Below are positions 16,190-61,011 of a stretch of DNA of 64,000 nucleotides, piece after piece. The notes under the pieces were generated by a model. That model was not told where the DNA came from and made no database searches. It saw nothing but the letters and a program-made list of their open reading frames with translations. The translations under genes and the position numbers were made by a program. Source of the stretch: Sulfuritalea sp. (GTDB lineage Bacteria > Pseudomonadota > Gammaproteobacteria > Burkholderiales > Rhodocyclaceae); assembly GCA_030680805.1 (NCBI GenBank), contig JAUXUK010000070.1, forward strand, positions 1 to 64,000, in the 5' to 3' direction. The number at the start of each line of letters is the position of its first letter. Positions within the stretch are counted from its first letter, which is position 1.

Positions 16190-16370
16190 GTCTCTCTCCT
16201 TGGGTTGGGGCAGGCACGCACATGCATGTCCGCAGCGCATTGTTCCTGCATAAGACCGGGAGCGGGTAGTAGCCGGTTAACGCGCCAGGCGGGGCACATC
16301 AGCACGCAATGACCATGTTCTCCGAGGGGGGGTGTAGTATTACCCAACATGCCTATCATGACGCTTCTCA

Positions 16371-19300
16371 ATGCCGCACGATCTGGCTGCCGACGGCACT
16401 AAGCCAGCAAAGCCATCCCGCTTGGGGCTTTGGCCTGCGTGGGTTGCGCTCGCCTGCTCGCTGGCGTTGACCGCGGTTGTCTGGCGCTATACCCAGCAGG
16501 ATATCGAGCGTCAGTTGCGCCTTGAGTTCGAAGCCGAGGTCACCCAGGCGCGGGCCGACCTCGACAGCCGAATCGGTGCCTATACCCAGACCCTGCGGGG
16601 GGCTGCCGCGCTGTTTGCCGCGAGCGACACGGTTACGCGCAAGGATTGGCGGGATTATGTGGCCGGCCTGAAACTGGAAACCAACTATCCGGGAATCCAG
16701 GCGGTGATCTTTGCCCGTTCAGTTGCCGAGGCCGAACTCGGTGCGCTGGTTGAGACAATGCGCAGTAGCGGATTGCCGGATTTTGCGGCGCACCCGCCGG
16801 GGCGCCGCGAGCATTACGTGGTGAATGTCTACGCCGAGCCCCATACCGTGCTCAACGGCAAGACTGTCGGCCATGACATGTGGCAGGACGCGGATAACCG
16901 CGAGACGATGCAGCGCGCACGCAGCGCCGGCGAACCGATGATCACGGGCCGCGTCACGCTGCTGATCGACGATCAGAATCCGGTGCCTGCGTTCATCATG
17001 TATCTGCCAGTAATGGCCGGGTCGGGGAAGCATGTTTTCGGCTACGTGCTGAGTCCCGTCCGCATGCCGACGTTGATGGCGGACCTCCTCAAGCGCAACC
17101 CGCGCGGCATCTCGTTGAGCATCCACGATGGCACTGCGACCCACGCGGAGAACCTGCTCTATACCAGCGATCCGGAACCAACTGGCGCGGTGCCTCGACT
17201 CGGTTCCAGCGAGATTGTGAAAGTGGGAGGGCGGCAGTGGACCCTGACCCATGCCAGCCGGCCCGAACTTGAAGCGCGCGGCGACACGTCGCGTCCGACG
17301 CAGGTCCTGGTGGGAGGTCTGCTTGCCAGCGCACTGCTGTTCAGCATTGCCTGGTCACTCGCCACCAATCGCGACCGCGCCCTGCGCCTGGCCGGCAGGA
17401 TGACGGCTTCATTGCGCGAGAGTGAAGAGCAGTTTCGGGTCCTGGTCGAGCAGGCGCCCGATGCCATTGTGGTGTTCGACGTGGATCTGGGCCGTTTCGT
17501 CGAGGCCAATTCCCAGGCCGAACAGTTGTTCGGTTGCTCCCGCAAGGAACTGCTGGCGGCCGGGCCCGAGCGATTCCTTCCGTCCGGCCTGTTCAATGGA
17601 AAATCCGCGGCGGAAAATTTGAAGGAAATGCTGGAACGCGTGCTGGCAGGCGATCAGGTCGTGATTGATGCCTCGATTCTCAACAGTCGGGGTGAGGCCT
17701 TGTACTGCGAGGCGCGCATGGTGAGATTGCCTTCCACCGAGCGCCGGCTGGTGCGCGGCAGTTTCGTCGATATCACCGCGCGTCGGCTGGCGGAGAAGGC
17801 GCGGGCTCAGGAACAGGCGATGCAGCGGCACAGTGAGGAACGGATCCGGCTGCTGCTGAATTCAACCGGCGAGGCGATCTACGGCATCGATCGGGAGGGC
17901 CGTTGCACGTTTTGCAATCCGGCGGGCGTGCGCATGCTGGGATGGGAGGATGAGCGGAACCTCCTTGGCCAAGAAATGCACACGAAGACTCACTACCAGA
18001 AGCCCGATGGTTCCCCCTATCCCGCCGATGAGTGTCCGATCTATAAAGTGCTCGAAAGCGGCGAGGATGTATGGGTGGAGGACGAAATCTTCTTCCGCGC
18101 GGATGGTTCGGGATTTCCCGTGCGTTATGGAGCACACCCGCTGCGGCGCGATGAGCAGATTGTCGGCGTCGTGGTGACCTTTACCGACATAACCCAGCGC
18201 AAGGCGGCGGAGAGCGAGATCAGGAATCTGGCGTTCTATGATCCGCTGACGCGCCTGCCCAATCGGCGACTGATGCTCGATCGTCTGCGCCAAGCGCTGA
18301 CCAGCAGCACGCGACATGGACTGCATGGCGCCCTGATGCTGTTTGACCTGGATGATTTCAAGACGCTGAACGACACGCTGGGACACGACGTCGGCGACCA
18401 GTTCCTGGTGGAAGTCGCCAGGCGCATGGAATCCTGCATACGAGAAGGCGATACGGCAGCCCGGCTCGGCGGTGACGAATTCGTCGTGATCCTCGAGGAC
18501 CTTGATGCGGAAGCAGTGGCCGGCATGCAGGCCGAGATCGTGGCGGTCAAGATACAGGCAGCCCTGAGCCAGCTCTTCACCCTTGAGATGTCCTTCGGCG
18601 ACGACCGGGACACGCGCAGCTATCACTGCACTTCGAGTATCGGTATCACATTGTTTCGCGATCAGTCGCTATCGGCCGACGAGTTGCTCAAGCGTGCCGA
18701 TACGGCGATGTACCAGGCCAAGGCGGCCGGCCGCAACACGTTGCGCTTCTTCGATCCCGACATGCAAGCCGTGGTGGCCGCGCGCGCAGCGATGAATTCC
18801 GACCTGCGCTTCGCGATACGCGAGCGACAGTTCCTGCTGCACTATCAGTCCCAGGTGGATCGGACTGGCCGTGCGACCGGTGTCGAGGCGCTGGTGCGCT
18901 GGCAGCATCCGCGGCGCGGCATGGTGTCCCCCGGCGAGTTCATCCCGCTGGCAGAGGACAACGGACTGATCCTGCCGCTGGGTCGCTGGGTGCTGGAAAC
19001 CGCCTGCCAGCAGCTGGCGCTGTGGGGGCAACAGAAGGAGTCGTCGCATCTGACGATGGCGGTCAATGTCAGCGGCCGCGAATTCCGCCAGAAATACTTT
19101 GTCGACGAGGTACTCGCGGTCATCCGGGACACCGGCGCAAATTCGGCGCGACTCAAGCTGGAGCTGACCGAGAGCCTGCTGCTGCACGACGTGGAAGACA
19201 CGATCGCCAAGATGGCGGCGCTGCGTGGAGAGGGTGTCAGCTTCTCGCTTGATGATTTCGGCACCGGCTACTCATCGCTTTCCTACCTGAAGCGCCTGCC

Positions 19301-19550
19301 TCTGGGCCAGCTCAAGATCGACCAATCGTTTGTGCGCGACGTGCTTGGCGACACCAACGATGCAGCGATCGTGCGCACCATCATTGCGCTCGGACAGAGC
19401 CTGGGACTGGCGGTGATCGCCGAGGGAGTCGAGACCGAGGATCAGCGCGAGTTTCTGGCCGGGCAGGGATGTGATGCCTATCAGGGCTACCTGTTCGGCC
19501 GGCCGGGAACGGTGGACGACATACTGAGAGGCCGCAAGGCGGACGACTGA
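16371..19550 (+). CDS. CHASE-PAS-PAS-GGDEF-EAL bifunctional c-di-GMP protein
   Basis: A 1059-residue membrane sensor. Order: membrane segment (about 20-40), periplasmic CHASE domain (DLDSRIGAYTQTLRGAA, YPGIQAVIFAR), membrane segment (about 310-328), PAS (from about 353), PAS (from about 488), GGDEF (from about 619) and EAL (from about 816). Both enzyme sites look intact: LGGDEFVVILED with an inhibitory I-site REGD five residues upstream, and EALVRW, LELTESLL, SLDDFGTGYS and VIAEGVET. It may make and break c-di-GMP depending on the CHASE ligand. No strong ribosome site is visible before ATG 16371. It ends 49 bases before the next gene start and may be co-transcribed with the six-gene cluster that follows. 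Confidence 0.92.
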   Translation: MPHDLAADGTKPAKPSRLGLWPAWVALACSLALTAVVWRYTQQDIERQLRLEFEAEVTQARADLDSRIGAYTQTLRGAAALFAASDTVTRKDWRDYVAGLKLETNYPGIQAVIFARSVAEAELGALVETMRSSGLPDFAAHPPGRREHYVVNVYAEPHTVLNGKTVGHDMWQDADNRETMQRARSAGEPMITGRVTLLIDDQNPVPAFIMYLPVMAGSGKHVFGYVLSPVRMPTLMADLLKRNPRGISLSIHDGTATHAENLLYTSDPEPTGAVPRLGSSEIVKVGGRQWTLTHASRPELEARGDTSRPTQVLVGGLLASALLFSIAWSLATNRDRALRLAGRMTASLRESEEQFRVLVEQAPDAIVVFDVDLGRFVEANSQAEQLFGCSRKELLAAGPERFLPSGLFNGKSAAENLKEMLERVLAGDQVVIDASILNSRGEALYCEARMVRLPSTERRLVRGSFVDITARRLAEKARAQEQAMQRHSEERIRLLLNSTGEAIYGIDREGRCTFCNPAGVRMLGWEDERNLLGQEMHTKTHYQKPDGSPYPADECPIYKVLESGEDVWVEDEIFFRADGSGFPVRYGAHPLRRDEQIVGVVVTFTDITQRKAAESEIRNLAFYDPLTRLPNRRLMLDRLRQALTSSTRHGLHGALMLFDLDDFKTLNDTLGHDVGDQFLVEVARRMESCIREGDTAARLGGDEFVVILEDLDAEAVAGMQAEIVAVKIQAALSQLFTLEMSFGDDRDTRSYHCTSSIGITLFRDQSLSADELLKRADTAMYQAKAAGRNTLRFFDPDMQAVVAARAAMNSDLRFAIRERQFLLHYQSQVDRTGRATGVEALVRWQHPRRGMVSPGEFIPLAEDNGLILPLGRWVLETACQQLALWGQQKESSHLTMAVNVSGREFRQKYFVDEVLAVIRDTGANSARLKLELTESLLLHDVEDTIAKMAALRGEGVSFSLDDFGTGYSSLSYLKRLPLGQLKIDQSFVRDVLGDTNDAAIVRTIIALGQSLGLAVIAEGVETEDQREFLAGQGCDAYQGYLFGRPGTVDDILRGRKADD

Positions 19551-19599
19551 GCGAAGCATTGTGGATGCGCTCCGGAGCATGATCGTCGACCGCCTGCAA

Positions 19600-22500
19600 A
19601 TGCGAAGAGCGCTTGCTCTAGTGCTGTTGCTAAGCTTTTCGTCGCCAATCTGGGCCGGGGCGGAGGAGTCGTTCGTCAGAAAGAAGTTCGTCGAAGCGCG
19701 GGATCTCGCAGCCAGAAGCGGCAGTCTCGACGATCTGGGCATTCTGGGCTGGAGCCAGTACATGCTCGACGATTACGGTTCGGCCCTGATCAGCTTTCGC
19801 AAGCTCGAACGGAGCTGGCCCAATGATTTCGATGCGCTGCTGGGGCTGGCCTGGGTCCACACCAGGACCGGGAACCTCGCGGAGGCCGAGAAATACCTGA
19901 AGAGGGCGGAACTCGCCGCGGTGGCCTCGCAGCGGCCGCTGGTTCACGACCTCAAGGGATGGCTGGCGATGAAGAGGGGCGACTTCGCAGCCGCGACCCG
20001 GCATTTCGAGGAAGAGGAGAAGGACCCGGCCGCCGCCGGCAAGCCCGACGCGGCCTTAGGTCTGGGATGGCTGGCGTTCAATCGCGGTGATCTGGCAAAG
20101 GCCAGGCTGGAATTCGAGCGCGGCCTGAGCCGGGATGGAAAATGTTTTTATTGTCGCGACGGTCTCGGGCGTGTCGCAATGGCCAGAGGGGAACTGAAGG
20201 AAGCCCTCAGCCAGGTGCTGGCGGGGATCGAAGCGACCAGCGACAGCCCGGGGCTCAATGCCCTTCTCGCGTCGGTGCTGGTCGCCATCAACGATTCCAC
20301 GCTTGGCCGGCGGACCTACGAAACTCTTGTCGCCCGCCACCCCGGGGCAATCGCCTACCGGAACGGCTTGGGCAACGCGCTGCTCACGGAAGGCAGGGCT
20401 GCCGGCGCCGAGTCCGAGTTTCGCAAGGTGCTGGCGATCGATCCGAACAATCCGGCGGCACAGGCGGGAATCGCCTCCCTGCAGATTTTCAAGACCCGCA
20501 TTGTCAAGGACGGCTGGGAGGCCTACTTCCGTGGCCTGTACGAGAAGGCTCTGAGCCTGTTCGATGGCAAGCGCAAGGAGGCGGCGGCGATCAGGAATCC
20601 CTCGGCGGAGGACGGTCGCGGCTGGAGTCTGCTCGCGCTGGACAAGGCCGAGGAGGCACGCGATGCGTTTCGCGCGGCGATCGCCATGGACCCGCAATTC
20701 TTCTATTCGGCCAGCGGCCTCGCCAGCGCCGAGGGCCGGCTGCTGAGCAGCTACCACAAGGCCTGGAACCTGATCGATGCAGGGCGCTTCGATGAGGCTG
20801 TGGCAATGTTGGGCAGAGCCCGCGGCCAGACGCCGGCGGATCTGCAATGGCTGATCCAGGATGGACTGGCCTGGGTGTCGTTCTTCAGGAAGGACTACGC
20901 TGGCGCCGAGAAGCGGTTTGCGGTAGTCCTCGCAACGAACAAGGATGCTTATCTCTCGGAAATGGGGCTGGGCAGGATTGCACTGGAGCGCAAGGACTTC
21001 AGCGCAGCGATCCGGCACCTGTCGCGGTCCTTGCTGCTGAACCCCTACCAGTTGCTGGTTTCCTATACGATCCCCGCCGCGAAGCTGATCGACGCCGGCC
21101 AGTTCCGCGACGCCAGGGACATCCTGGCGCGGGGCGAGCGCATTTACCCGTATTCCGCCGACATCCACTATCTGCTGGCGCGAGCGCAGGCCGGGCTCAA
21201 CGAGGAGCGCGGCGCCGCTCAAAGTCTGGTCAGGGCCGCAGATCTGGCGCCGTTTTACATAGATCCCGTGTTCGACAAAATTACCCTTGGCGCGCAGGCG
21301 AAGCAGACGGCTCTGCTGTCGATCGGCTGGGCGCTCTACTATGCGGGAGGAGCGGCCGCAGCCGCGAAGCGATTCGAGCAATACGCCGCAGCGGGGGGCA
21401 GCGCGGTGGGCGGGCTGCTCGGGAGCGGCTGGTCGCAACTGGCGCTCAAGAACCTGCCGGGCGCAAGAAAGTCCTTCGAAGCCGCACTCAGGGCCGGCGA
21501 TACTGGCGATGCCCATGCCGGGATCGGCTGGACGCAGATGGGCGTCGAGCAGATCACGGAGGCCGAAAGAAGTTTCAAGACCGCGCTGAGGGCGCTGCCC
21601 AATCACGCATCCGCCCAGTCCGGCCTGGCGGCCATCCAGTTTCGCAAGACCATGCTCGTCAAGGAGGGCTGGGAAGCCTACTACAAGGGCGACTACAAGA
21701 AGGCTCTGGGCGCGTTCGAGGCGAAGCAGGATGCGGCCGCCAGCGCCAGGAACGCGGCGGCGGAGGACGGACGCGGGTGGACGTTGCTGGCGATGGGAAA
21801 TACCAAAGGCGCCGCCAGCGCCTTCGACAGGGCCTTGAAAATCGATACCGACTACTATTCGTCGCAAAGCGGACGCGTTGCCGCGCGCAGGGCCGAACTG
21901 GTCCTTTATCAGCAGGCTTGGGGCCATCTCGACGCGGGACAGTTCGAACAGGCGAGGACGAAGTTCGAGAATGCACGCAAGGAAGGCCCCGCCGAGTTTG
22001 CCTGGCTGGTCGACGATGGCCTGGCGTGGCTTGCCTTCTACAAGAAGGATTACGACGCAGCGGAGAGGGGTTTCCAGGCGGTCGTGGCGAACACGCCGGG
22101 CGCCTACCTTTCGCACAAGGGACTCGGTTATGTGGCGGTCGAGCGCAAGCAGTATCCCGCGGCGGCAAGATCGCTGGTGACGTCATATTCCCTTGCGCCC
22201 TATCAGGGCGTGACGTCCTACACCGTGCCCACCGTGAAGATGATCGACGGCAAGGCATACGCGCAGGCCAGAGAGGTGCTTAGTATCGGCGAGAAGGTCT
22301 ATCCCTATTCCTCCGACATCCAGTTCCTGCTGGCACGGGCGGCGCTCGGCCTGGGCGATGAGGACGCCGCGGCGCACAAGGCGGCCACCGCGGCGGCCTT
22401 GGCTCCCGCCTACATAGATCCGGCCTTCGATCGCCTGGGCCTGTCGCCCAGGGCGGCGCGCGCGGCGCTGCCCAGCCTGGCATGGGGATTGTATTTTGCC

Positions 22501-22968
22501 GGCGACAATGCCGGCGCCATCAAGCGCTTCGATGCGGCATTGAGGATGGGTGCCAGCGATCCGAACCTGTCCCGCGGCAAGGGCTTCGCCCTGTTCCGGC
22601 AGGGCAAGTATCGGGATGCCCTGCCGCTGCTCGAGGCCGCAATGAGACTGGAGCCCGAAAAGCTGTTGCCGATCGTCGAGGTCGTCCCGATTCCAGGGAC
22701 CAATCAGTCCTGGACTATTGAATACACCGCCGGCACAACCCTGGCCTGGGCGCATTATCGGCTCGGCGCGCATGCCAGGGCGGATGAACTCTTCGCCCTG
22801 GCCGTGACCGAAAATCCGGTTAACATCGATGCGCTGACCGGTCGCGGCTATGCGCGGCTTGCGCTGAAGGATGTCGACGGCGCTCAGACCTATTTTGATC
22901 GCGCGCTCAGGATTTCACCGCAGTATCCCGACGCGTTACGAGGATTGGCCGCGGCCAGGAAGCCATGA
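19600..22968 (+). CDS. exported giant TPR protein with internal duplication
   Basis: An approximately 1122-residue protein with a signal peptide (MRRALALVLLLSFSSPIWA) followed by TPR-type helical repeats throughout. A block starting near residue 306 (DGWEAYFRGLYEKAL) is repeated near residue 690 (EGWEAYYKGDYKKAL). Matching landmarks include AEDGRGWSLLAL/AEDGRGWTLLAM, IYPYSADIHYLLARA/VYPYSSDIQFLLARA and PFYIDPVFDK/PAYIDPAFDR, so a unit of about 350 residues was duplicated. The ATG at 19600 gives the best signal peptide; GTG 19561 and ATG 19579 are in-frame alternatives. The stop overlaps the PqqD-like start (ATGA). TPR arrays bind proteins, so a periplasmic scaffold role for the cluster is inferred. 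Confidence 0.85.
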   Translation: MRRALALVLLLSFSSPIWAGAEESFVRKKFVEARDLAARSGSLDDLGILGWSQYMLDDYGSALISFRKLERSWPNDFDALLGLAWVHTRTGNLAEAEKYLKRAELAAVASQRPLVHDLKGWLAMKRGDFAAATRHFEEEEKDPAAAGKPDAALGLGWLAFNRGDLAKARLEFERGLSRDGKCFYCRDGLGRVAMARGELKEALSQVLAGIEATSDSPGLNALLASVLVAINDSTLGRRTYETLVARHPGAIAYRNGLGNALLTEGRAAGAESEFRKVLAIDPNNPAAQAGIASLQIFKTRIVKDGWEAYFRGLYEKALSLFDGKRKEAAAIRNPSAEDGRGWSLLALDKAEEARDAFRAAIAMDPQFFYSASGLASAEGRLLSSYHKAWNLIDAGRFDEAVAMLGRARGQTPADLQWLIQDGLAWVSFFRKDYAGAEKRFAVVLATNKDAYLSEMGLGRIALERKDFSAAIRHLSRSLLLNPYQLLVSYTIPAAKLIDAGQFRDARDILARGERIYPYSADIHYLLARAQAGLNEERGAAQSLVRAADLAPFYIDPVFDKITLGAQAKQTALLSIGWALYYAGGAAAAAKRFEQYAAAGGSAVGGLLGSGWSQLALKNLPGARKSFEAALRAGDTGDAHAGIGWTQMGVEQITEAERSFKTALRALPNHASAQSGLAAIQFRKTMLVKEGWEAYYKGDYKKALGAFEAKQDAAASARNAAAEDGRGWTLLAMGNTKGAASAFDRALKIDTDYYSSQSGRVAARRAELVLYQQAWGHLDAGQFEQARTKFENARKEGPAEFAWLVDDGLAWLAFYKKDYDAAERGFQAVVANTPGAYLSHKGLGYVAVERKQYPAAARSLVTSYSLAPYQGVTSYTVPTVKMIDGKAYAQAREVLSIGEKVYPYSSDIQFLLARAALGLGDEDAAAHKAATAAALAPAYIDPAFDRLGLSPRAARAALPSLAWGLYFAGDNAGAIKRFDAALRMGASDPNLSRGKGFALFRQGKYRDALPLLEAAMRLEPEKLLPIVEVVPIPGTNQSWTIEYTAGTTLAWAHYRLGAHARADELFALAVTENPVNIDALTGRGYARLALKDVDGAQTYFDRALRISPQYPDALRGLAAARKP

Positions 22969-23240
22969 AGAATGCAAATTTGAAATTGCGGCCGCATGTC
23001 CGCCTCGAAACCGATGCGGAAGGTCGGGGCGGCATGATGCTGGATACCCAGTCCGGAACGATTTGCGCCTGCAACGAGTCCGCCTGGGTGACCCTGAAAG
23101 CGCTGAAACGCGGAAGCGATGCCGATGCATTGGCCAGGGGGCTGACCAAGGCGTTCGAGGTCGATCCGGATCTGGCCCGGAAGGACGTTCTGGCGCTGGT
23201 TGCCGAGTTGCAACTGATGGATTTGCTGGAGCAGGCATGA
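22965..23240 (+). CDS. PqqD-like small protein (RiPP recognition element fold)
   Basis: A 91-residue protein matching the PqqD family: LKLRPHVRLETD then GGMMLDTQSGTICACNESAW and a helical end (VLALVAELQLMDLL). PqqD proteins are winged-helix peptide chaperones that hold the leader of a ribosomal peptide for a modifying enzyme; similar proteins also occur in polysaccharide and kinase-linked clusters. It overlaps both neighbours by ATGA, so it is translationally coupled to the TPR gene and the ATP-grasp gene. No separate precursor peptide gene fits between the packed genes. See the findings for a possible leader-like segment in the decarboxylase. Confidence 0.8.
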   Translation: MKNANLKLRPHVRLETDAEGRGGMMLDTQSGTICACNESAWVTLKALKRGSDADALARGLTKAFEVDPDLARKDVLALVAELQLMDLLEQA

Positions 23241-25402
23241 CCACGACCGAAATCCATGTCGCGCTGACCGGCCTGTCCGGACTCGACAATCCGGAGCCCG
23301 GACTTGCCGTCGCCCGTGCGTTGCGCAGCGGCTGGCGGGGGCCGCTGCGGCTCGACGGCCTCGTCTACGATGCATTATCCACCGGCGGCTGGACGCCGGG
23401 CGTTGCCGACTGCCTGCACCTGATTCCGCCGATAGCCCAGGGCGACGATGCGGTCTTGCAGCGCCTCCTGACCCTTCATCAGCGGCACCGGTTCGATGTC
23501 CTCATCCCATGCCTCGACCTTGAGGTGCCGGTCATCTCGCGCTTGTCGAGTCGCCTGGCCCGCGCCGGAATCCGCACGCTGCTGCCCGAGGCCGGGGATG
23601 TGCAGGCGATCAGCAAAGTCAACCTGAGTGCGTTTTGCTATGCCAACGACGTGGTCACGCCACGCACGGTGCATGTGCGCGATTTGTCCACCGTGCCCTT
23701 GCATGCCGACAGCTTCGGCTACCCGCTCTGGGTCAAGGGAACGGTGGCGGGCGCGAGAAAGGTCTACAACCGGGAGCAGGCCGTATTCGAGGCGGAAATC
23801 CTGGCGGCCAAGTGGGGTGGCGGGGTGCTGCTGCAGGAGACGATCGAGGGCAGCGAACACATGGTCGCCGCCGTCGTACGGAGTGATGGCAGCTGCCTCT
23901 CGATGATTTCGGCGCGCAAGCTGGGCACCAATCTGCGTGGCAAAAGCGTGATCGGCGGCGTCATCGACGATCCCGTGCTGAAGCGCATCGCCTCACGTCT
24001 GGTGAGCAAGCTTCACTGGCGGGGACCGCTCGAGCTTGAATTCGTTCGTGCGGCCAGCGGCGGACAGTTCTACCTGATCGAGATCAACTGCCGCTTTCCG
24101 GCGTGGGTGCTTCTGAGCGAATTCGCCCGCGCCAACATGCCTGTTGCGCTGGTGAAGGAAATGCTGTCGCCGGGGACGGCTGTGCGCGGCAGGGTGCGAG
24201 TCGGCTCGATGTATGCAAGGGATGTGCAGGAGATGGCGGTTCCGATCGCCGCCGTTCGCGAACTCAAGCGTTCGGGGAGCGCGCCGGTGCCGGCGGTCAG
24301 GGCGCTGCGCAGGCGGCGGGGCGATCTGACGGTCGCCGTCACGGGAATCTCGGCCTTTGAGTTGACGCAGCCCGGCCTCGGCGTCGCGCGCTGCCTCAGG
24401 GCTGCGCCGGAAGTGGGGCGTTTGCTCGGGCTTGCCTACGCGCCCAACGATACCGGCCTGTTTCGTTCCGAGCTTTTCGACAGGTGCTGCCGCATCGGCT
24501 TCGAGCACGATGAGGCAAAGAAGGGCCAAGGCGACGCAGCGCTTTTTGATCGGCTCGTCGCCATCAGGAAAAAGAACGGCCTGGACGTCGTGATTCCCAA
24601 TCTCGATTTCGAGATCGGCCGCTATCAGCGCATCGCCCCCGAACTTGAACGAATCGGAATCAGGACCTTGTTGCCCGGCGTCGCCGCGCGGCGGAAATTG
24701 GGCAAGCAGGGTCTTGCCGAACTTATCGGGCGACATCAATGGAGCGGATTCGAATACCCGGAAACGATGCTGGTCAAGAGTCGCTCCGATCTGGTGCGCG
24801 CCTGGGAACGTTTCGGCAATCCGCTGATACTCAAGGGGCTGGTGGCCGGAGCTGTCCGCCTGTTTTCACTCAAGCAGGCGCTGATGGCCTGGATGCGATT
24901 CAAGGCTGAGGGCGAAGCTCAGGTGCTTGCCCAGCCTTCGGTGTTTGGCGAGGAGTTCGGCGTAGGTGTCGTCTGCGACCGCAATGGGCGCCTGATCGAT
25001 GCGATGGCCCTGAAAAAGCTGGTGATGTGCGAACGGGGCAAGACTTGGGGAGCGACCCCGGTGCCGCTGTTGCAGGCCGTCGCGGATCTGGCCGAGATGC
25101 TGAGGAAGGTTGCCTGGGTCGGCCCGGCGGACGTCGAGTTCATTCGCGACTCGGTGACGGAAAAGCTTGAGCTGATAGAAATCAATCCGCGTTTCCCCGG
25201 CTGGATAGGGTTTTCCGGCCTGACGGGATCCAATTTGCCACGCCAGCTTGTGCTGGCGGCAATGGACCGCCAGCCCGTGCCGGCTGGCGGCGACAAGGCC
25301 CTCACCCAGGGGGCCATTTTCATGAGGACCGTGGAGGAGATTCCGGCGGCAGCCTCCACCATGGCGGCCTTCGTCAATCGGGGCGAGATTGCATATGACT
25401 AA
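23237..25402 (+). CDS. tandem (CarB-like) ATP-grasp enzyme
   Basis: A 721-residue protein made of two similar ATP-grasp halves (about 1-345 and 365-710). Each half has a Rossmann-like start (VALTGLSG and VAVTGISA with PGLAVAR/PGLGVAR), an ATP-binding lysine (WVKGTVAG near 166, ILKGLVAG near 531) and a metal-binding end (EINCRFPAW near 282, EINPRFPGW near 648). Two active-looking halves in one chain recall the carbamoyl phosphate synthetase large subunit, although this protein is shorter and not CarB. ATP-grasp enzymes join a carboxylate to an amine or other nucleophile through an acyl phosphate. The start is fixed by the ATGA overlap at 23237; an open frame upstream is not part of it. The substrate is unknown. 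Confidence 0.85.
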   Translation: MTTTEIHVALTGLSGLDNPEPGLAVARALRSGWRGPLRLDGLVYDALSTGGWTPGVADCLHLIPPIAQGDDAVLQRLLTLHQRHRFDVLIPCLDLEVPVISRLSSRLARAGIRTLLPEAGDVQAISKVNLSAFCYANDVVTPRTVHVRDLSTVPLHADSFGYPLWVKGTVAGARKVYNREQAVFEAEILAAKWGGGVLLQETIEGSEHMVAAVVRSDGSCLSMISARKLGTNLRGKSVIGGVIDDPVLKRIASRLVSKLHWRGPLELEFVRAASGGQFYLIEINCRFPAWVLLSEFARANMPVALVKEMLSPGTAVRGRVRVGSMYARDVQEMAVPIAAVRELKRSGSAPVPAVRALRRRRGDLTVAVTGISAFELTQPGLGVARCLRAAPEVGRLLGLAYAPNDTGLFRSELFDRCCRIGFEHDEAKKGQGDAALFDRLVAIRKKNGLDVVIPNLDFEIGRYQRIAPELERIGIRTLLPGVAARRKLGKQGLAELIGRHQWSGFEYPETMLVKSRSDLVRAWERFGNPLILKGLVAGAVRLFSLKQALMAWMRFKAEGEAQVLAQPSVFGEEFGVGVVCDRNGRLIDAMALKKLVMCERGKTWGATPVPLLQAVADLAEMLRKVAWVGPADVEFIRDSVTEKLELIEINPRFPGWIGFSGLTGSNLPRQLVLAAMDRQPVPAGGDKALTQGAIFMRTVEEIPAAASTMAAFVNRGEIAYD

Positions 25403-26780
25403 GCGGATTCCCTATACGGCACCCAGGCTCGAACTGATCACGCCGCGCAGCATGCAGAAGCATCGCACCGTCGACATCAGTTCCGCGGATTCCCCGCTGG
25501 ATGACATTGGCGATGTCAAGGCGCTGTTGCGCGAGTTCGGTTCGCCTCTTTTCATCCTGTCGGAAAAGACGCTGCGCGCGCAGTACCGTGCCTTTCGCGA
25601 CAGCTTCACCGCGCCCGGAATCGACACCGTGGTCGCTTACTCGTACAAGACCAATTATCTTCCCGCGGTTTGTTCAATCCTGCATCAGGAGGGGGCTTGG
25701 GCGGAGGTGGTGTCGGGCATGGAATACGATCTGGCGCGCGCGCTGGGCGTTCCCGGAACCAGGATAATCTTCAACGGGCCATACAAAAGACCGGAAGAGC
25801 TGGCGCGCGCCATCAAGGAAGAGGCGCTGATCAATGTCGATAGCTTCGATGAGCTGGACCTGCTGGTATCGGTCGCGGAAAATCTTGGAATCGCCGCGCG
25901 CACCGGATTGCGCATCAACTTTCAGCATGGCCGGCAGTCGTGGACCAAGTTTGGCGTGAACGCTGACAATGGCGAAGCGCAGGAAGCCTTGCACAGGATA
26001 AAAAGGGCTGGGAAATTGCTGCGCTTCGAGGCCCTGCACAACCATTCCGGAACCTTTCAGACCAATCCGGAAATCTATTCGCGCGCGGCGCAGGTCTTGA
26101 TCGGTGTCGCCAGGTCGGCCAGGGCCCTTGGCCTGGCTCCGGCCATTGCCGACTTCGGCGGCGGCTACCCCTCGAACAATCGCCTGAAACCGACGTTCGA
26201 TGTTGCCGGAGGTTCAGGGTCGAGCGGACAGTTCCTGGCGCCTTTTGCCGAAGCGATCATCGGGCCGTTGAGCAAGGCCCGCAAGGCATTTGGCGCGCGG
26301 CCGACGCTGGTGCTGGAACCGGGTCGTGCGCTGGTGGATACCGCGTTTCGGCTGGCCTGCACCGTGGTGGCGCGCAAGAACATCGCCGGGCAGGGCGAGG
26401 CGGTGATCGTGGACGCCGGCGTGAATCTTGTTCCGACCGCCTACTGGTATGATCATGGCATCAATGCGGCATCGGGCGGCGATGCGCAGGGGAAGGCCGG
26501 AGCGAAGCCGGTCGCGGTGTTCGGTCCCTTGTGCATGCAGGTCGATGTGCTGCGCGAACGGGCCGTCCTGCCGAGCATGGCGCTGGGCTCGCCGCTGATG
26601 ATCTCGAACGTCGGCGCCTACTGCATCACCCAGTCGATGCAGTTCATCCAGCCGCGCCCCGCTGTTGTGATGGTCGGTCCTCACGGGGTGGAGGAGATCA
26701 GGCGGCGCGAGACGCGCAGCGACATTTTCAACATGGACAGGGTTCCGGCTCGACTGAAGTCCAAGGGAGCGAAGTTCTGA
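25395..26780 (+). CDS. fold-III PLP-dependent decarboxylase (LysA/ornithine decarboxylase type)
   Basis: A 461-residue enzyme with the alanine-racemase-fold barrel and C-terminal beta domain of diaminopimelate/ornithine decarboxylases. The PLP lysine is K85 in AYSYKTNY, HNHSGT lies near 215, then DFGGGYPS, and EPGRALVD. The usual C-terminal CExxD motif reads CMQVD, so substrate selection may differ from classical LysA. An N-terminal extension of about 45 residues precedes the barrel and contains YTAPRL (Y7-x-x-P10-x-L12). The ATG at 25395 overlaps the ATP-grasp gene by 8 bases. The family removes CO2 from a basic amino acid; the actual substrate here is unknown. Confidence 0.87.
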   Translation: MTKRIPYTAPRLELITPRSMQKHRTVDISSADSPLDDIGDVKALLREFGSPLFILSEKTLRAQYRAFRDSFTAPGIDTVVAYSYKTNYLPAVCSILHQEGAWAEVVSGMEYDLARALGVPGTRIIFNGPYKRPEELARAIKEEALINVDSFDELDLLVSVAENLGIAARTGLRINFQHGRQSWTKFGVNADNGEAQEALHRIKRAGKLLRFEALHNHSGTFQTNPEIYSRAAQVLIGVARSARALGLAPAIADFGGGYPSNNRLKPTFDVAGGSGSSGQFLAPFAEAIIGPLSKARKAFGARPTLVLEPGRALVDTAFRLACTVVARKNIAGQGEAVIVDAGVNLVPTAYWYDHGINAASGGDAQGKAGAKPVAVFGPLCMQVDVLRERAVLPSMALGSPLMISNVGAYCITQSMQFIQPRPAVVMVGPHGVEEIRRRETRSDIFNMDRVPARLKSKGAKF

Positions 26781-26783
26781 TTC

Positions 26784-28406
26784 ATGGCAATAGTGACAAA
26801 ACGTTTGTTGCAGGACGCCGGTCAGGCTTGGCTCAAGGGATTTGCGCACGTCGCGTTTCTCGACCGACCGGTACATGGCGTGCTGGTCATTGTTGCGATT
26901 GCCGCGGTGGCGCCATGGAGCGTTGCGGCGGCCGCATTCTGCGCCACTCTGGCGATTGTGCTGGGCAGGGTCGTGTTTTCCCAGAGCGAATGGGAGTGGA
27001 AGGAAGGCCTCGGCGCCTACGACTGCGTGCTGCTGGGCATCGCCTGGGGCGGCGCATTCGGCCAGGGACCGCACATGGCCTTTCTGCTGTCCGTGGCGGC
27101 GCTGGGCTGCCTGGCCATGCGCGGCCCCATCGCGGCTCGTTTCAACGGTCTGGGATTGCCGTCGCTCGCACTTCCCGGGCTGGTCAGCATATGGCTTTCA
27201 ATCGGTGTGTTTGCGGCACTGGGGGCCGATTTCTGGCTTGTTCCGCCGGGTAATCCCTTCGGCCCGTCGGGTCCGGCAATCGCGATTATTGTCGTGGCCC
27301 TTGCCTTGTTTCTGAAGGACGTTCGGGCTGCCGCCGCCGCTGCGCTGACTGCCGCCCTGACTGCCGTCGTGCATGTTCTTGTCGGCGGCGATCCCCTCTC
27401 GATCAGGGGAGCAGGCCTGTGGGCCTTTACGGTAGTGCCGGCGATGTTCGCGCTTTCCGCGGTCTTTCTCAAGGGATTTCGCCTGGGCTGGAAGGCTGGT
27501 GCGATGGCGGCGCTGCTGTCCGCCGCCATCTGGCTGCTCTGGCTTCGCCTGCCATTGCTGGAGGACGTTCCGCCGCTGATGGGACCTCTGTTTCTGGGCA
27601 TATGGGGCGCGCTGATTCTCACGCTGGGACAGGACCGGCGGCTATGCCTTGACCCGGGGGTGCAACACGCGGCCCGCGTTCTGGCCGAAGCCAGGGGCAC
27701 GGGGACTACCCTTGCCCTGACCGGCGCCGGCATCAGCACCGCATCCGGAATTCCCGATTACACCGAGGGGCATTGGTTGTCGCCCGGCATTCCGGTATCG
27801 AGCTACAGCTATGGCGCGTTTCTGGCCGATGCGGAATCCCGTGCGCTTTATTGGGATGCCTGCGCCCGGTTTCGCGATGTCGCCGTCAGCGCAAAGCCGA
27901 ACGGCGGCCACATCGCCCTCGCGGGCCTGGAGGAGGCAGGCTACATCCTCGCCACCATCACCCAGAATGTTGACGGGCTACACCAGACGGCGGGCAGCCA
28001 ACAGGTTGGCGAACTGCACGGAACAATCTTTTCGGTTCGTTGTCTGGCTTGCGACCATATAGAGGAATGGCCAGCCGACGCTTTCTGGAAGTACGCCAGC
28101 CCCTGCTGCCGGCTTTGCGGCGGGCTGTTGAAGCCGGCGGTGATCGCATTTGGCGAAAGTATCCGGCTGGCGACCTGGCACGATGCGGCGGAAAAGGCCG
28201 GGCAGTGCGGAGCCCTGCTGGTGGTGGGGTCCCAGCTTGCCGTCTCCTCCGCCAGTGCCTTGCTTGCCGCTGCTCGCGCCCGCGGAGTGCCGTGCGTATT
28301 CGTTACCCTCGGACCGCTTGCCGTACCGATCTTTCCGGGCGACACCGTGATCAATTCTGCGGCGGAAAGCGTCCTGCCCGCCATGGCCCGGTTGCTCGAA
28401 GCATGA
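26784..28406 (+). CDS. fusion: urea-transporter-like membrane domain + Sir2 zinc sirtuin
   Basis: A 540-residue protein with two unrelated parts. Residues 1 to about 290 are a multi-pass membrane domain with UT-family traits: a DRPVHGVLVI start and GLGAYDCVLLGIA, like the GLYGYNGVLVGLA repeat of urea channels, echoed by GLWAFTVVPAMFAL in the second half. Residues about 300-540 form a sirtuin: TGAGISTASGIPDY (NAD binding), TQNVDGLH (393-400), catalytic H412 in GELHGT, zinc cysteines C420, C423, C442 (or C441) and C445, and KPAVIAFGE. Sirtuins use NAD+ to remove acyl groups from lysine. The sirtuin part should face the cytoplasm. It overlaps the NadE-like gene by ATGA. The UT assignment is divergent and less certain than the sirtuin. 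Confidence 0.85.
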   Translation: MAIVTKRLLQDAGQAWLKGFAHVAFLDRPVHGVLVIVAIAAVAPWSVAAAAFCATLAIVLGRVVFSQSEWEWKEGLGAYDCVLLGIAWGGAFGQGPHMAFLLSVAALGCLAMRGPIAARFNGLGLPSLALPGLVSIWLSIGVFAALGADFWLVPPGNPFGPSGPAIAIIVVALALFLKDVRAAAAAALTAALTAVVHVLVGGDPLSIRGAGLWAFTVVPAMFALSAVFLKGFRLGWKAGAMAALLSAAIWLLWLRLPLLEDVPPLMGPLFLGIWGALILTLGQDRRLCLDPGVQHAARVLAEARGTGTTLALTGAGISTASGIPDYTEGHWLSPGIPVSSYSYGAFLADAESRALYWDACARFRDVAVSAKPNGGHIALAGLEEAGYILATITQNVDGLHQTAGSQQVGELHGTIFSVRCLACDHIEEWPADAFWKYASPCCRLCGGLLKPAVIAFGESIRLATWHDAAEKAGQCGALLVVGSQLAVSSASALLAAARARGVPCVFVTLGPLAVPIFPGDTVINSAAESVLPAMARLLEA

Positions 28407-29323
28407 TGGACGGAAGCGGCGCGGCGATGAGCCTTCACTGTCCGCCGGATCGGCTGGCGTGCGAGATCGAGCGAATCACCGGTTTCCTTTCCAGTCGAAT
28501 CCAGCCCGGACAAAAAGCCGTGCTGGGCGTTTCCGGGGGCATTGATTCGGACGTCACGGCGCGGCTGGCTGCACGTGCCCTCGGAGCAGAAAGGCTGAAG
28601 CTGTTTACCGTGGTTCAGGCGGACATGGAACTTCGCCATTTGCACAATGCCAGAAGCCTGGCGGCCGAACTGCGGATTCCGCTGGTGGAGATACCGCTTG
28701 CCCCGTGGGCTCCCGCCATGATCGACATGCTGGCTGAAGCCGACCCCAGCGAAGGTTTCAACAACGCGGCCTTTCTTGATATCGGTCGCGCCAAGAATTC
28801 CCTGCGCACCGTGGTCTATTCGACCTATCACGACCGGGGCTATATCACACTGGGGACGTCGAACCGGACGGAAACCGAATGCGGGTTTTTCGTCCGCCTC
28901 GGTGACGGCATCTGGCACCTGGGGCCGCTCGCACATCTCTACAAGACCCAGGTGTATCAACTGGCCGGGGCCCTGAACTGCGATCCGGAGGTAATCCGGC
29001 AGCCGGCCTCGGCGGGCTACTGGAATGGCGAGAGCGACCTTGAGGATCTCTCCTACTGGCTGGTGAATGAAAAGCCCGTCGGTGCGCAACAATATTTCAG
29101 CCCTGCCGAAGTCGAACTGGCGCAGTCGATCTGGTCGGAGCTCAGCTTCGAGAGGCTTGATCGCGGCCTGCAGGCCATTGCCGCAGGCAGCCGGGATGCA
29201 GCGGCCATTGCGGCTGGTTCCGCGCTGTCGGTCGCAACCGCTGGGAGACTCTTGCGACTGACTGAAGCGGCAAGGGCGATCCGGGGTGTTCCTCTCGGAG
29301 TTAGACTTGAAGCCATCGACTAG
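28403..29323 (+). CDS. NAD synthetase-like ATP pyrophosphatase (NadE family)
   Basis: A 306-residue protein with the N-type ATP pyrophosphatase loop GVSGGIDSD (about 35-43), then TLGTSNRTE, LYKTQVYQLA and PASAGYWNGESDLEDL, all in the order seen in NAD+ synthetase. It lacks a glutaminase domain, so it would use ammonia. The segment usually reading GDGxxD reads GDGIWH, so a residue of the deamido-NAD site may be altered. It could make NAD+ for the sirtuin encoded just before it, or amidate another acid. ATG 28403 overlaps the preceding stop; ATG 28427 is an alternative. It is the last clear gene of the cluster. Confidence 0.85.
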   Translation: MMDGSGAAMSLHCPPDRLACEIERITGFLSSRIQPGQKAVLGVSGGIDSDVTARLAARALGAERLKLFTVVQADMELRHLHNARSLAAELRIPLVEIPLAPWAPAMIDMLAEADPSEGFNNAAFLDIGRAKNSLRTVVYSTYHDRGYITLGTSNRTETECGFFVRLGDGIWHLGPLAHLYKTQVYQLAGALNCDPEVIRQPASAGYWNGESDLEDLSYWLVNEKPVGAQQYFSPAEVELAQSIWSELSFERLDRGLQAIAAGSRDAAAIAAGSALSVATAGRLLRLTEAARAIRGVPLGVRLEAID

Positions 29324-29347
29324 TACAAAGACCTCTTACTTTCGAAA

Positions 29348-29375
29348 CGTCATACCGGCGACCGCCGGTATCCAG
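29348..29375. repeat. dispersed 28-nt repeat, left arm
   Basis: CGTCATACCGGCGACC... through TATCCAG (29348-29375) is the inverted counterpart of 29402-29429, with 24 of 28 positions matching. Such TGGATTCC...GGAATGAC elements are common between genes in betaproteobacteria. It follows the NadE-like gene and may help end or stabilise that transcript. Confidence 0.7.
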
Positions 29376-29401
29376 AGGACGACGTGATGTGCTCCGAAAT
29401 C

Positions 29402-29429
29402 CTGGATTCCGGCCTTCGCCGGAATGACG
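29402..29429. repeat. dispersed 28-nt repeat, right arm
   Basis: CTGGATTCCGGCCTTCGCC through GGAATGACG is the direct-orientation copy; a related copy lies at 33711-33738. With the left arm it could form a long imperfect stem in RNA. Confidence 0.75.
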
Positions 29430-29475
29430 ATGCTTTGAATGTTGCTTCGCAATTATCGTTTCGCAATACTGGCCT

Positions 29476-30021
29476 ATGGAACTGACTGCCGACCGCGAGC
29501 CTCCTCCCTTCCTTCTGCGCGCGCCGCGACACGAAGACGCCTCTGCCTATGCCGCGTTCATGTCCGATCCGGAGGTGAGCATCTGGCTTGAGGATCGTTG
29601 CCAAAGGCCCATCCCTTTCCACCACACGCAGGCGTTCGTGCTCGGTGAGGCATGGTGCAGGCTGGCAATCGAGTGCGAGGGGCGATTTGCCGGCATGGCG
29701 GGGCTGGAGGACTACGATGCCGCCAACGGTGTCGCGCGCTTCTTTGTCGTGGTGGGTGACCGGGCATTGTCGAACCGGGGCTTGGGCACGGCGGTCGCCC
29801 GCGCATTGGTCAGCCGGGGTTTCCACGAACTGGGATTGCGGAAGATCGTCTCGAATTATCTTGCGCCGAATGTGGCTTCCCGCATTGTTCATGCGCGCGC
29901 CGGGTTTTCAGAGGAAGGCGTGCAGCGCAAGGTGGCCTGGCGGCGCGGAGAATGGGTGGATCAGGTACTGGTGTCGATCTTGCGAGAGGAGTGGCTCGGT
30001 TCGGCGTGGCGCGGGCAGTAG
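29476..30021 (+). CDS. GNAT family N-acetyltransferase
   Basis: A 181-residue protein of the RimJ/RimL-like GNAT type. It starts with LLRAPRHEDASAYAAFMSDPEV, then has the acetyl-CoA-binding loop NRGLGTAVARALV (Q/RxxGxG/A-like) and NVASRIVHARAGFSEEG near the end. It transfers an acetyl group to an amine, possibly a protein N-terminus or a small molecule. It follows the NadE-like gene after 152 bases of repeat-rich DNA, so it is probably a separate unit, and it converges on recJ. The substrate is unknown. Confidence 0.85.
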   Translation: MELTADREPPPFLLRAPRHEDASAYAAFMSDPEVSIWLEDRCQRPIPFHHTQAFVLGEAWCRLAIECEGRFAGMAGLEDYDAANGVARFFVVVGDRALSNRGLGTAVARALVSRGFHELGLRKIVSNYLAPNVASRIVHARAGFSEEGVQRKVAWRRGEWVDQVLVSILREEWLGSAWRGQ

Positions 30022-30065
30022 CGGCAAAATTCATCACGTCCGGAACCTGAGCCAGGACGCGCGCT

Positions 30066-31790
30066 TCAGGCGGCTTCGAAGTGCTCCAGCATCAACTGCA
30101 CGGTCTGGGTGCCGTTCCATTCGTTGATATCGACGCGGAAGGCGGCGCGGATGCGATCCGGCACTCCGTTGGCAAACCCGTCGGCAAAATTGAACTGGAT
30201 CGCGTCGAAACGCTGGTTGCCTTTTTGCAGCTTGAGCTTGAGGTGCTTGTCTTTCAGGATGCGCTGGTTGAGCACCTCGAAGCTGTCGGCGAACACCGGC
30301 GCGGGAAAGGCCTGGCCCCAGACTTCCTGCTGCATCAGGCGCACCGCGTCGATCGAGAAATAGCCGGATTCCAGCGGGCCGTCGGTTTCCAGCGTGCGCG
30401 AGAGGTCGGCCGGCGAGAGCAGTTCGCGGCAGACTCTTTCGAAAGCGGTTTCGAATTCGGCGAGGCGGTCCTCGTTCAGCGTCAGGCCGGCGGCGGCGGC
30501 GTGGCCGCCGAAGCGCAGCAACATGCCCGGATGGCGCTTGGCGACCAGATCCAGCGCATCGCGCAGGTGCAGGCCTGGAATCGAACGGCCGGAAGCCTTC
30601 AACTCATTGGCGTTGCCGCGGGCGAAGGCAAAGGTCGGGCGGTGCAGCTTTTCCTTGACGCGGCCGGCAAGGATGCCGATCACGCCCTGGTGCCAGGCAG
30701 GATCGAACAGCGTCAGGCTGGCGCGGTTGCCGGGATCGAGCGACGCCAGCAGCAGTTCGGCGTCTTCGCGCATGCCGGCTTCGATCACGCGCCGCTCGCG
30801 GTTGATGGCATCCAGCTGCTGGGCGATGTTCATGGCGCGGTTGGGGTCGTCGGTGATCAGACACTCGATGCCCAGCGACATGTCGGCCAGGCGCCCGGCG
30901 GCATTGAGGCGCGGGCCGAGCGCGAAGCCGAGGTCGAAGGTTGCGGCGCGGCTGGTTTCGCGGCCGGCGACGGCGAACAGCGCACGAATGCCGGCCTGCA
31001 TCTGCCCACCGCGGATGCGCGTCAAACCCTGGGCGACGAGGATGCGGTTGTTGCGGTCGAGGGGCACCACGTCGGCCACGGTACCCAGCGCCACCAGGTC
31101 GAGCAGCCCGGCCAGGTTGGGCTCCGGCTCGCTGCCGTAGGCGCCACGGCGGCGCAGCTCGGCGCGCAGGGCCAGTGCGACGTAGAACATCACGCCGACG
31201 CCGGCCAGCGCCTTGCTCGGAAAATTGCAGCCGGGCTGGTTGGGGTTGACGATCACGTCGGCGGCCGGCAACTCCGCAGTTGTCAAACCCGCGGGCAGGT
31301 GGTGGTCGGTAATCAGGGTCGCGATGCCGAGCCGCTTCAGTTCCGCGACGCCCTCGACGCTGGCGATGCCGTTGTCGACCGTGACCACCAGATCGGGTTG
31401 CCGCGCTGCCGCCAATTGCGCCACTTCCAATGAGAGTCCGTAGCCCAGCGTGAAGCGGTCCGGCACCAGGTAATCGACCGTGGCGCCCATCATGCGCAAG
31501 GCGCGCAGGCCGACCGCGCAGCCGGTCGCGCCGTCGCAATCGTAGTCGGCGACGATCAGGATCTTGCGCCCGGCGGCGATGGTATCGGCCAGCAATACCG
31601 CGGCTTCCATCGTTCCCTTGAGTTTGTCGGGGGAGAGCAGGGCGCTGCTGCGCGTATCGAGTTCATCCATGCCGCGGATGCCGCGCGCGGCGTAGAGCCT
31701 GGCCAGCAGGGGATGCACGCCGCCCTGTTCGAGCGCCCAGGTGGCGCGGGGCGGAATGTCGCGCACGGCAATTCGCGTCGCATGGGTCAT
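30066..31790 (-). CDS. recJ: single-stranded-DNA-specific exonuclease RecJ
   Basis: A 574-residue protein with RecJ DHH/DHHA1 architecture. Motifs: VADYDCDGATG (metal aspartates), DNGIAS, TDHHLPA (the DHH motif), NPNQPGC, then the C-terminal GGHAAAAGLTL and the OB-fold end. RecJ degrades single-stranded DNA 5' to 3' in recombination and mismatch repair. The length is normal. The start at 31790 overlaps the stop of the COG4255-type gene by ATGA, a gene pair common in betaproteobacteria. Confidence 0.96.
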   Translation of the reverse strand: MTHATRIAVRDIPPRATWALEQGGVHPLLARLYAARGIRGMDELDTRSSALLSPDKLKGTMEAAVLLADTIAAGRKILIVADYDCDGATGCAVGLRALRMMGATVDYLVPDRFTLGYGLSLEVAQLAAARQPDLVVTVDNGIASVEGVAELKRLGIATLITDHHLPAGLTTAELPAADVIVNPNQPGCNFPSKALAGVGVMFYVALALRAELRRRGAYGSEPEPNLAGLLDLVALGTVADVVPLDRNNRILVAQGLTRIRGGQMQAGIRALFAVAGRETSRAATFDLGFALGPRLNAAGRLADMSLGIECLITDDPNRAMNIAQQLDAINRERRVIEAGMREDAELLLASLDPGNRASLTLFDPAWHQGVIGILAGRVKEKLHRPTFAFARGNANELKASGRSIPGLHLRDALDLVAKRHPGMLLRFGGHAAAAGLTLNEDRLAEFETAFERVCRELLSPADLSRTLETDGPLESGYFSIDAVRLMQQEVWGQAFPAPVFADSFEVLNQRILKDKHLKLKLQKGNQRFDAIQFNFADGFANGVPDRIRAAFRVDINEWNGTQTVQLMLEHFEAA

Positions 31791-60990: not shown

Positions 60991-61011
60991 TCGCTTTGGT
61001 CCGGCCGCCGG

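Follow-up and report, generated by a model that had tools for sequence, protein, structure and literature searches.

A conserved seven-gene cluster of Sulfuritalea with a urea-transporter–sirtuin fusion, and its possible place in a larger group of envelope-linked gene sets for amide synthesis

The DNA analysed here, a stretch of 64,000 nucleotides from Sulfuritalea sp. (contig JAUXUK010000070.1; hereafter the window), carries a compact group of seven genes, one of whose products joins a urea-transporter (UT) fold to a sirtuin (Sir2) domain. The genes form one conserved unit and are probably a single operon. We read them, tentatively and at somewhat less than an even chance of being right, as the UT-Sir2 form of a larger family of envelope-linked gene sets that build amides, the chemistry being proposed from protein families and conserved residues. 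What was observed directly is the conserved order of the genes, the domains that they encode, the residues of the decarboxylase pocket and the exchange of enzymes between loci. The seven genes are the following:

19600..22968, + strand: exported protein with tetratricopeptide (TPR) repeats, 1122 residues; N-terminal signal sequence (recognised by eye); an alternative GTG start lies upstream at 19561
22965..23240, + strand: PqqD-domain protein, resembling a recognition element (RRE) of ribosomally synthesized and post-translationally modified peptides (RiPPs), 91 residues; Pfam PF05402
23237..25402, + strand: tandem ATP-grasp ligase, 721 residues; Pfam ATPgrasp_Ter
25395..26780, + strand: fold-III (alanine-racemase-fold) pyridoxal-phosphate (PLP) decarboxylase, 461 residues, with a GPLCMQVD loop; Pfam Orn_Arg_deC_N
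26784..28406, + strand: UT-Sir2 membrane fusion, with the urea-transporter fold at about residues 1-290 and Sir2 at about 295-540; Pfam UT and SIR2
28403..29323, + strand: NadE-like ATP-pyrophosphatase, a diverged paralogue, 306 residues; Pfam NAD_synthase
29476..30021, + strand: GNAT-family N-acetyltransferase, 181 residues, the seventh gene, 152 bases past the NadE-like gene and absent from the list of an earlier note on this DNA

The six genes between 19600 and 29323 all run in one direction and meet at junctions of -4, -4, -8, +3 and -4 bases (negative values are overlaps). That layout, together with the family names, had been put forward in the earlier note; rechecking the reading frames confirmed the coordinates and junctions, and every Pfam match exceeds its gathering score (PqqD 37.7 bits against 23.4, ATPgrasp_Ter 54.1 against 29.1, Orn_Arg_deC_N 94.4 against 23.4, UT 63.5 against 25, SIR2 118.6 against 24, NAD_synthase 107.3 against 21). 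A promoter and terminator scan of 16000-30300 gave one promoter-like and 11 terminator-like sites, a yield not above the shuffled-sequence level.

The case for a single unit is carried by gene order. A near-full-length UT-Sir2 match occurs in seven of 31 genomes of the genus (G000, G002, G006, G007, G008, G013 and G030), all of which hold the seven genes in identical order, as does G247, a genome from another family. The neighbourhood comparison thus bears out the idea that the genes belong together, the adjacency being shared by six other genus genomes and G247 rather than confined to this one. In those six, the cluster proteins are 51-90% identical to their counterparts; the TPR protein is 61-83% identical across six genus loci, and the PqqD-domain proteins can be aligned in seven. 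Even the junctions recur: the -8 overlap between ATP-grasp and decarboxylase genes and the +3 gap between decarboxylase and UT genes are identical in the window, G002, G007 and G013, and the corresponding values in G006, G008 and G030 are -14 and +3. The set is rare in the order, since the ATP-grasp profile matches only four of 399 order-level genomes at E 1e-60. Within the genus the decarboxylase profile matches eight of the 31 genomes, the eighth (G010) having a UT domain fused to an M23 peptidase (UT-M23) on a contig that ends within the decarboxylase gene, so both forms occur within one genus; the UT-M23 form is also present in G103, of the same family.

The limits of the unit were examined at the DNA level. 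Upstream of the TPR gene, similarity to the window was found in G002 only (1.2 kb searched; 196 bases upstream in locus L041), whereas the 1.2 kb downstream of the GNAT gene showed no such similarity at any of the seven other loci. A gene for a large protein with GGDEF/EAL domains, of the cyclic-di-GMP (c-di-GMP) type, occupies 16371-19550 and ends 49 bases upstream of the TPR start. It had been floated as a possible member, a suggestion that we reject, as a matching neighbour exists in one of the six other genus loci, that of the closest relative G002, which is also the only one to share the upstream DNA. Spread by plasmids was likewise rejected: a plasmid collection searched at E 1e-20 gave no match for the ATP-grasp protein or for one UT-M23 protein.

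The GNAT gene is counted as a member because it comes after the NadE-like gene in all eight complete loci and because homologues stand in the distant UT-M23 loci L106 and L108 (229 and 235 bits with its own profile). A dispersed palindromic repeat lies between the NadE-like and GNAT genes of the window (core 29409-29429). With up to two mismatches allowed, its core occurs 64 times in the genome and the reversed control not at all. No half-sites of this repeat were found in the corresponding gaps of the six relatives, so it cannot explain the spacing generally.

Beyond the order, a sample of 398 genomes of the phylum was searched, of which 38 match the decarboxylase profile (E 1e-110) and 55 a UT domain (E 1e-5). 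A UT domain lies on the decarboxylase's own contig in 33 of the 38, the two domain matches being 39-631 bases apart, and one occurs in 22 of the remaining 360 genomes; the Fisher p-value of 2.6e-28 ignores relatedness and is overstated, because related genomes are not independent. All 21 genomes positive for the ATP-grasp profile (E 1e-60) fall among the 38. Profiles were also mapped onto 27 loci, 15 chosen by ATP-grasp match and 12 by UT match, which do not form a random sample. Of these, 24 contain the decarboxylase, and one, L117, contains no part of the set. Every decarboxylase locus also has ATP-grasp (24 of 24), a figure biased by the 15 loci chosen for it; UT is present in 21 of the 24, M23 in 18, Sir2 in 2 and PqqD in 21 (20 by profile, plus L107 by Pfam). 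Two functions had been offered for the cluster in the earlier note; in view of the constant pairing of ATP-grasp with decarboxylase, both in the mapped loci and in the 21 genomes, an amine- or peptide-type product stands as the best reading. The NAD-dependent response is not supported.

In 18 of the 24 mapped decarboxylase loci the UT domain is fused to an M23 peptidase rather than to Sir2. The usual UT-M23 locus comprises PqqD, a single ATP-grasp, the decarboxylase, UT-M23, an exported protein of 291-355 residues and a TPR protein. Its ATP-grasp/decarboxylase and decarboxylase/UT junctions vary about the values of the window, examples being -8 and 0 (L044), -8 and +2 (L048) and -4 and +3 (L053). 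The exported protein occurs in 15 of the 27 mapped loci and ends in tryptophan in 15 of 15, which we take as a sign of an outer-membrane barrel; we read it as barrel-like, and no Pfam family was found in three examples tested, nor an NCBIfam family in two of these. Among the nine UT-Sir2-form genomes it occurs in one, G356, where one strand carries PqqD, tandem ATP-grasp, decarboxylase and UT-Sir2 and the opposite strand carries the exported protein together with a short TPR protein; this genome therefore connects the two forms. A maximum-likelihood tree of 30 decarboxylases separates the nine UT-Sir2 rows from the rest by a branch with 100/100 support, L042 being a long branch in a tree for which the tool warns of long branches meeting, and on this evidence we regard the UT-Sir2 and UT-M23 forms as two lineages. 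MamA scores above its cut-off in eight of 12 genomes tested (G452, G459, G463, G478, G502, G506, G517 and G594), and the family thus occurs in magnetosome-type bacteria.

The decarboxylase offers the most specific clue to the chemistry. Its best match in the Protein Data Bank (PDB) is N-citrylornithine decarboxylase (7kh2), with which it shares a CMQ-x-D loop and a PT...Y helix. In the paper on that enzyme, M355 is described as standing in place of the aspartate that binds the side-chain amine in ornithine, arginine and diaminopimelate decarboxylases (ODC, ADC and DAPDC), and T327, T330 and Y331 are placed on the specificity helix (PMC7857480). We compared the pockets of 30 decarboxylases, with numbering mapped through alignment to 7kh2 and with L106 excluded because the ends of its contig cut the gene. 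All 30 keep T348, W351, Y352, C380, M381, Q/N382, V/I383 and Q413, and Met381 is a neutral residue where an acid would bind a free side-chain amine. Since this methionine is present in all 30, as in N-citrylornithine decarboxylase, the product is read as an N-acylated diamine or peptide-like amide, and we infer that the substrate is an N-acylated basic amino acid whose acyl group is not citrate; the invariance of the pocket suggests one chemistry for the whole family. The protein scores below the curated cut-offs of both related models tried (FslC NF041039, 196.6 against 500; lysA, 199.8 against 297.9).

Both halves of the ATP-grasp ligase look intact: 14 of 14 checked positions over the two halves, which presumably have a catalytic role, are invariant in seven of seven sequences, with Lys, Glu, Asn and Arg kept in each half. 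Its nearest models are the carbamoyl-phosphate-synthase-like PRK12767 group. Kinship with the Ter operon was rejected, ATPgrasp_Ter being a mere family label and no Ter genes occurring among the seven. Ligase and decarboxylase appear to be exchangeable together. In L110 and L115 (G478 and G506), UT-M23, TPR and barrel-like genes adjoin a fold-I OKR_DC_1 decarboxylase (245.7 bits, L110) and a 500-residue protein whose NCBIfam match to PRK06524 (biotin carboxylase) reaches 509.8 bits, below the cut-off of 684, and which we take as an ATP-grasp-type enzyme; the L115 copies of the two L110 proteins are 90% and 96% identical. In L107, an asparagine-synthase-type protein (Pfam Asn_synthase) adjoins UT-M23, and copies 65% identical are found in L106 and L108. 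NadE and asparagine synthase both adenylate a carboxylate and then transfer ammonia, and we therefore read the two as alternatives for one amidation step.

The fusion protein matches the UT family of Pfam (PF03253) at 63.5 bits (cut-off 25) over a local span of only 130 residues, and the narrower model TIGR03441 at 52.5 bits against a cut-off of 274.6. In its Sir2 domain, His412, Asn395, Asp397 and four cysteines are kept in nine of nine sequences; we assume these to be the catalytic residue, the NAD site and the zinc ligands, respectively, and the domain may use NAD. In 13 of 15 UT-Sir2 and UT-M23 rows a crude charge bias points to an N terminus in the cytosol, and given an even number of helices the C-terminal domain would lie on the same side. 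A third kind of UT fusion was noticed in L107 (8072-9643) and L108 (6897-8819), where part of the urea-transporter fold is joined to TPR repeats.

The scheme that we propose is predicted throughout, from the single transcript, the substrates and the product to the order of steps, the direction of transport, the topology and the side on which the hydrolase acts. The ATP-grasp enzyme would activate a carboxylate and couple it to a basic amino acid through the side-chain amine, after which the decarboxylase would strip the alpha-carboxylate from the N-acylated amino acid to leave an N-acyl-diamine. The second ATP-grasp half could make a further amide bond, the GNAT enzyme would acetylate, and the NadE-like enzyme would convert a carboxylate to an amide. 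The UT domain may let the small neutral product, or part of it, cross the inner membrane, and the fused hydrolase (Sir2 here, M23 in most mapped relatives) would act on the side of the cytosol, cutting an amide of the acyl or peptide type, with the exported TPR protein and the barrel-like protein of many relatives serving the periplasm and the outer membrane. We also entertain a more specific model, though we consider it doubtful: that this is a new kind of envelope system, in which a urea-channel fold covalently joined to an exchangeable amide-cleaving enzyme (M23 peptidase or NAD-dependent sirtuin) moves a small N-acyl-diamine, made in the cytosol by ATP-grasp and decarboxylase, between the cytosol and the periplasm, cleaving it once it has crossed, with synthesis, passage and recovery all being encoded in one operon.

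Several observations weigh against the proposed scheme as a whole. The Sir2 domain has no Arg of the GIPxFR motif, a Thr standing there in eight of nine sequences and a Val in one (aligned to 1ma3 and 1ici). Crude hydropathy predicts between 6 and 10 helices for each UT-Sir2 or UT-M23 protein, the expected number being 10. A tree of UT domains, from which two of seven listed ordinary UTs were left out, separates Sir2-fused from M23-fused rows without joining both apart from ordinary UTs; a joint origin of the two fusions was set aside, as this tree does not resolve the matter. Among the 38 genomes with the decarboxylase, five (G494, G555, G594, G625 and G474) have no UT on the contig that carries it. 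In G625 the decarboxylase gene is cut short, three of the five have kilobases of UT-free flank, and the decarboxylase of G474 has a quite different neighbourhood: at L128 (9128-15689) it adjoins, judging by eye, a large uncharacterised protein, an AAA-type ATPase and a TIR/SEFIR-like protein, with no UT, in what could be a defence-like island. In the pocket itself, H357 and R387, assigned to citrate binding in the N-citrylornithine decarboxylase paper (PMC7857480), are replaced by V/I and Q in 30 of 30 sequences, so the acyl group is not likely to be citrate. The exchange of decarboxylase and ligase in G478 and G506 counts as a single event, these being close relatives, and a Pfam scan of the 500-residue protein of L110 gave no match. 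The GNAT gene never overlaps the NadE-like gene and is therefore tied less tightly than the other six, standing 152 bases away in the window and 162, 125, 118, 53, 53 and 53 bases away in the six genus relatives (7 or 22 in G247, according to which start codon is taken). Finally, the PqqD protein lacks a clear job if there is no precursor peptide.

A different view of the same genes would make them a stress or defence response at the membrane that depends on NAD, NadE making NAD+ and UT-Sir2 consuming it, which we regard as very improbable. The conserved Sir2 residues would suit it, and the NadE-like protein matches TIGR00552 at 105.5 bits (cut-off 63.65), with the checked ATP-binding residues S44, G45, G46, D48 and K181 kept in seven of seven. 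Compared with the solved enzymes, it keeps the checked SGG, SN, E and K but is altered in two segments, FTKxGDG and DExE, for which the window protein has VRLGDGIWH and DLED; V164, R165, W171, H172 and L213 are invariant in seven of seven, and we take the altered segments to form the deamido-NAD pocket. In six of the seven cluster-bearing genus genomes another NAD_synthase match, located in a frame of 546-622 residues, reaches 232-238 bits, whereas the cluster gene scores 88-110; in G030 (79% complete) the cluster gene is accompanied by a weak match only. In favour of the response, the cluster gene of G247 scores best there (107.4 bits), ahead of one other substantial match (82.5 bits). With an altered additional paralogue of NadE in the cluster, the case for an NAD function is weak, and the idea that NadE and the sirtuin form a cycle of NAD production and use is not borne out. 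Three other loci (L106, L107 and L108) carry the asparagine-synthase-type protein, and M23 outnumbers Sir2 by 18 to 2 in the 24 mapped decarboxylase loci. As for known anti-phage defence, none of eight proteins tested matches any PADLOC model.

Three further pathways have to be weighed against the proposed amide-building set. PqqD-domain proteins are typical peptide-binding elements, and in a RiPP pathway the one found here would bind a leader peptide, the ATP-grasp halves would cross-link or extend the peptide and the decarboxylase would act on it. We think this unlikely, although the domain scores above its Pfam cut-off, comes closest among NCBIfam models to a lasso-peptide PqqD (45.5 bits; cut-off 70) and occurs in 21 of 24 decarboxylase-bearing loci. 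The overlapping genes leave no space for a precursor between the first six, and within flanks of up to 1.2 kb at eight UT-Sir2 loci just two pairs showed mutually similar small frames, namely the closest pair, where they lie inside the GGDEF region, and L013/L014. No widely shared small frame thus emerged as a precursor gene from these flanks, the rest of the genome not having been searched; the comparison excluded the L015/L016/L017 pairs and the UT-M23 loci (gaps up to 527 bases) and covered 196 bases upstream in L041. In L044 (8413-9231), the PqqD domain stands behind a TetR-type (TetR_N) DNA-binding domain in one protein, an uncommon arrangement for a peptide chaperone. A metallophore (siderophore-like) pathway on the model of rhizoferrin, in which acylation is followed by decarboxylation and a renewed acylation, appears quite unlikely to us. 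It draws on the best solved relative of the decarboxylase, on a tandem ATP-grasp that allows two acylations, and on the statement, in PMC7857480, that clade homologues other than DAPDC and D-ODC are more likely to serve specialised metabolites such as siderophores, the window protein being unplaced on that tree. The citrate-contact positions are changed, however, Pfam and NCBIfam scans of the seven proteins revealed no siderophore synthetase of the NIS (IucA/IucC) kind, and a TonB receptor or siderophore exporter was not noticed in the loci, no dedicated search having been made. Synthesis of a compatible solute (osmolyte) comparable to N-acetylglutaminylglutamine amide (NAGGN), which needs acetylation, ATP-grasp ligation and amidation, is suggested by the joint presence of a GNAT, an ATP-grasp and an amidating-type ATP-pyrophosphatase, and the asparagine-synthase-type protein of L107 weakly matches the NAGGN amidotransferase model. 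That match is below its cut-off (197.8 bits against 570.1), while the cut-off of a general asparagine synthase model is exceeded (343.9 against 267.1); moreover, the decarboxylase, the channel (UT) fusion and the exported proteins have no known counterpart in NAGGN synthesis, and this pathway too seems highly unlikely.

Among known systems, the butirosin enzymes BtrJ and BtrK are an ATP-grasp and a fold-III decarboxylase that act in sequence, the substrate of BtrK being carrier-protein-bound glutamate. The same pairing is found here, and the BtrK structure 2j66 is among the PDB matches of the cluster decarboxylase, but Pfam and NCBIfam scans of the seven proteins found no acyl carrier protein. 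The FigA/FigC (FslA/FslC) branch of rhizoferrin synthesis offers a similar order of events, for an ornithine amide is formed first and a fold-III PLP decarboxylase removes the carboxylate afterwards, according to PMC7857480. It differs in that FigA is an NIS synthetase where the cluster has ATP-grasp, and in the residues H357 and R387, which the cluster decarboxylase does not keep. We know of no UT, Sir2, M23, PqqD or TPR partners in that branch. Graspetides and PqqD-dependent RiPPs share the combination of ATP-grasp and PqqD-type domain; unlike them, the cluster showed no precursor gene in the flanks searched and has an ATP-grasp nearest to PRK12767. The text of a graspetide survey mentions neither a decarboxylase nor urea (PMC8939145). 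Ordinary bacterial urea transporters (Yut/UT) have the same fold, above the Pfam gathering score, whereas the cluster-type UTs are fused to Sir2, M23 or TPR domains and lie beside biosynthetic genes. An exosortase/PEP-CTERM set was rejected, since both its models score below cut-off (TIGR02917 with the TPR protein, 158.2 against 312.2; TIGR03099 with the decarboxylase, 89.4 against 478.45 bits).

Three observations stand apart from these comparisons. The contig of L106 (G502; 8496 bases) has both ends inside a decarboxylase gene, and must therefore be either an opened circle or a single unit of the gene set in repeated form. The close relatives L047 (285-6036) and L052 (5496-11247), which have no UT match, carry what by eye are tripartite-efflux-like genes near ATP-grasp and decarboxylase, on the opposite strand. 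At 60985-63642 of the window, an 885-residue frame without Pfam match faces a long frame on the other strand and is possibly a shadow frame.

Each enzyme type is known in its own right, but as far as we have searched the open-licence literature, both their combination and the exchangeable channel-hydrolase fusion are new. That literature yielded no paper with both a urea transporter and ATP-grasp, no description of the gene set and none of a sirtuin as part of a transporter, subscription papers lying outside the search; 'unassigned biosynthetic cluster' is, admittedly, already a familiar label. If the proposed reading is true, the cluster would represent a pathway linking ATP-grasp ligation and decarboxylation to a urea-type channel with a catalytic domain, in which the conserved pocket predicts an acylated, not a free, basic amino acid as the substrate of the decarboxylase. 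The family extends far past the genus, to 38 of 398 genomes of the phylum, some of them with the magnetosome protein MamA, and several groups of uncharacterised proteins thereby become testable together.

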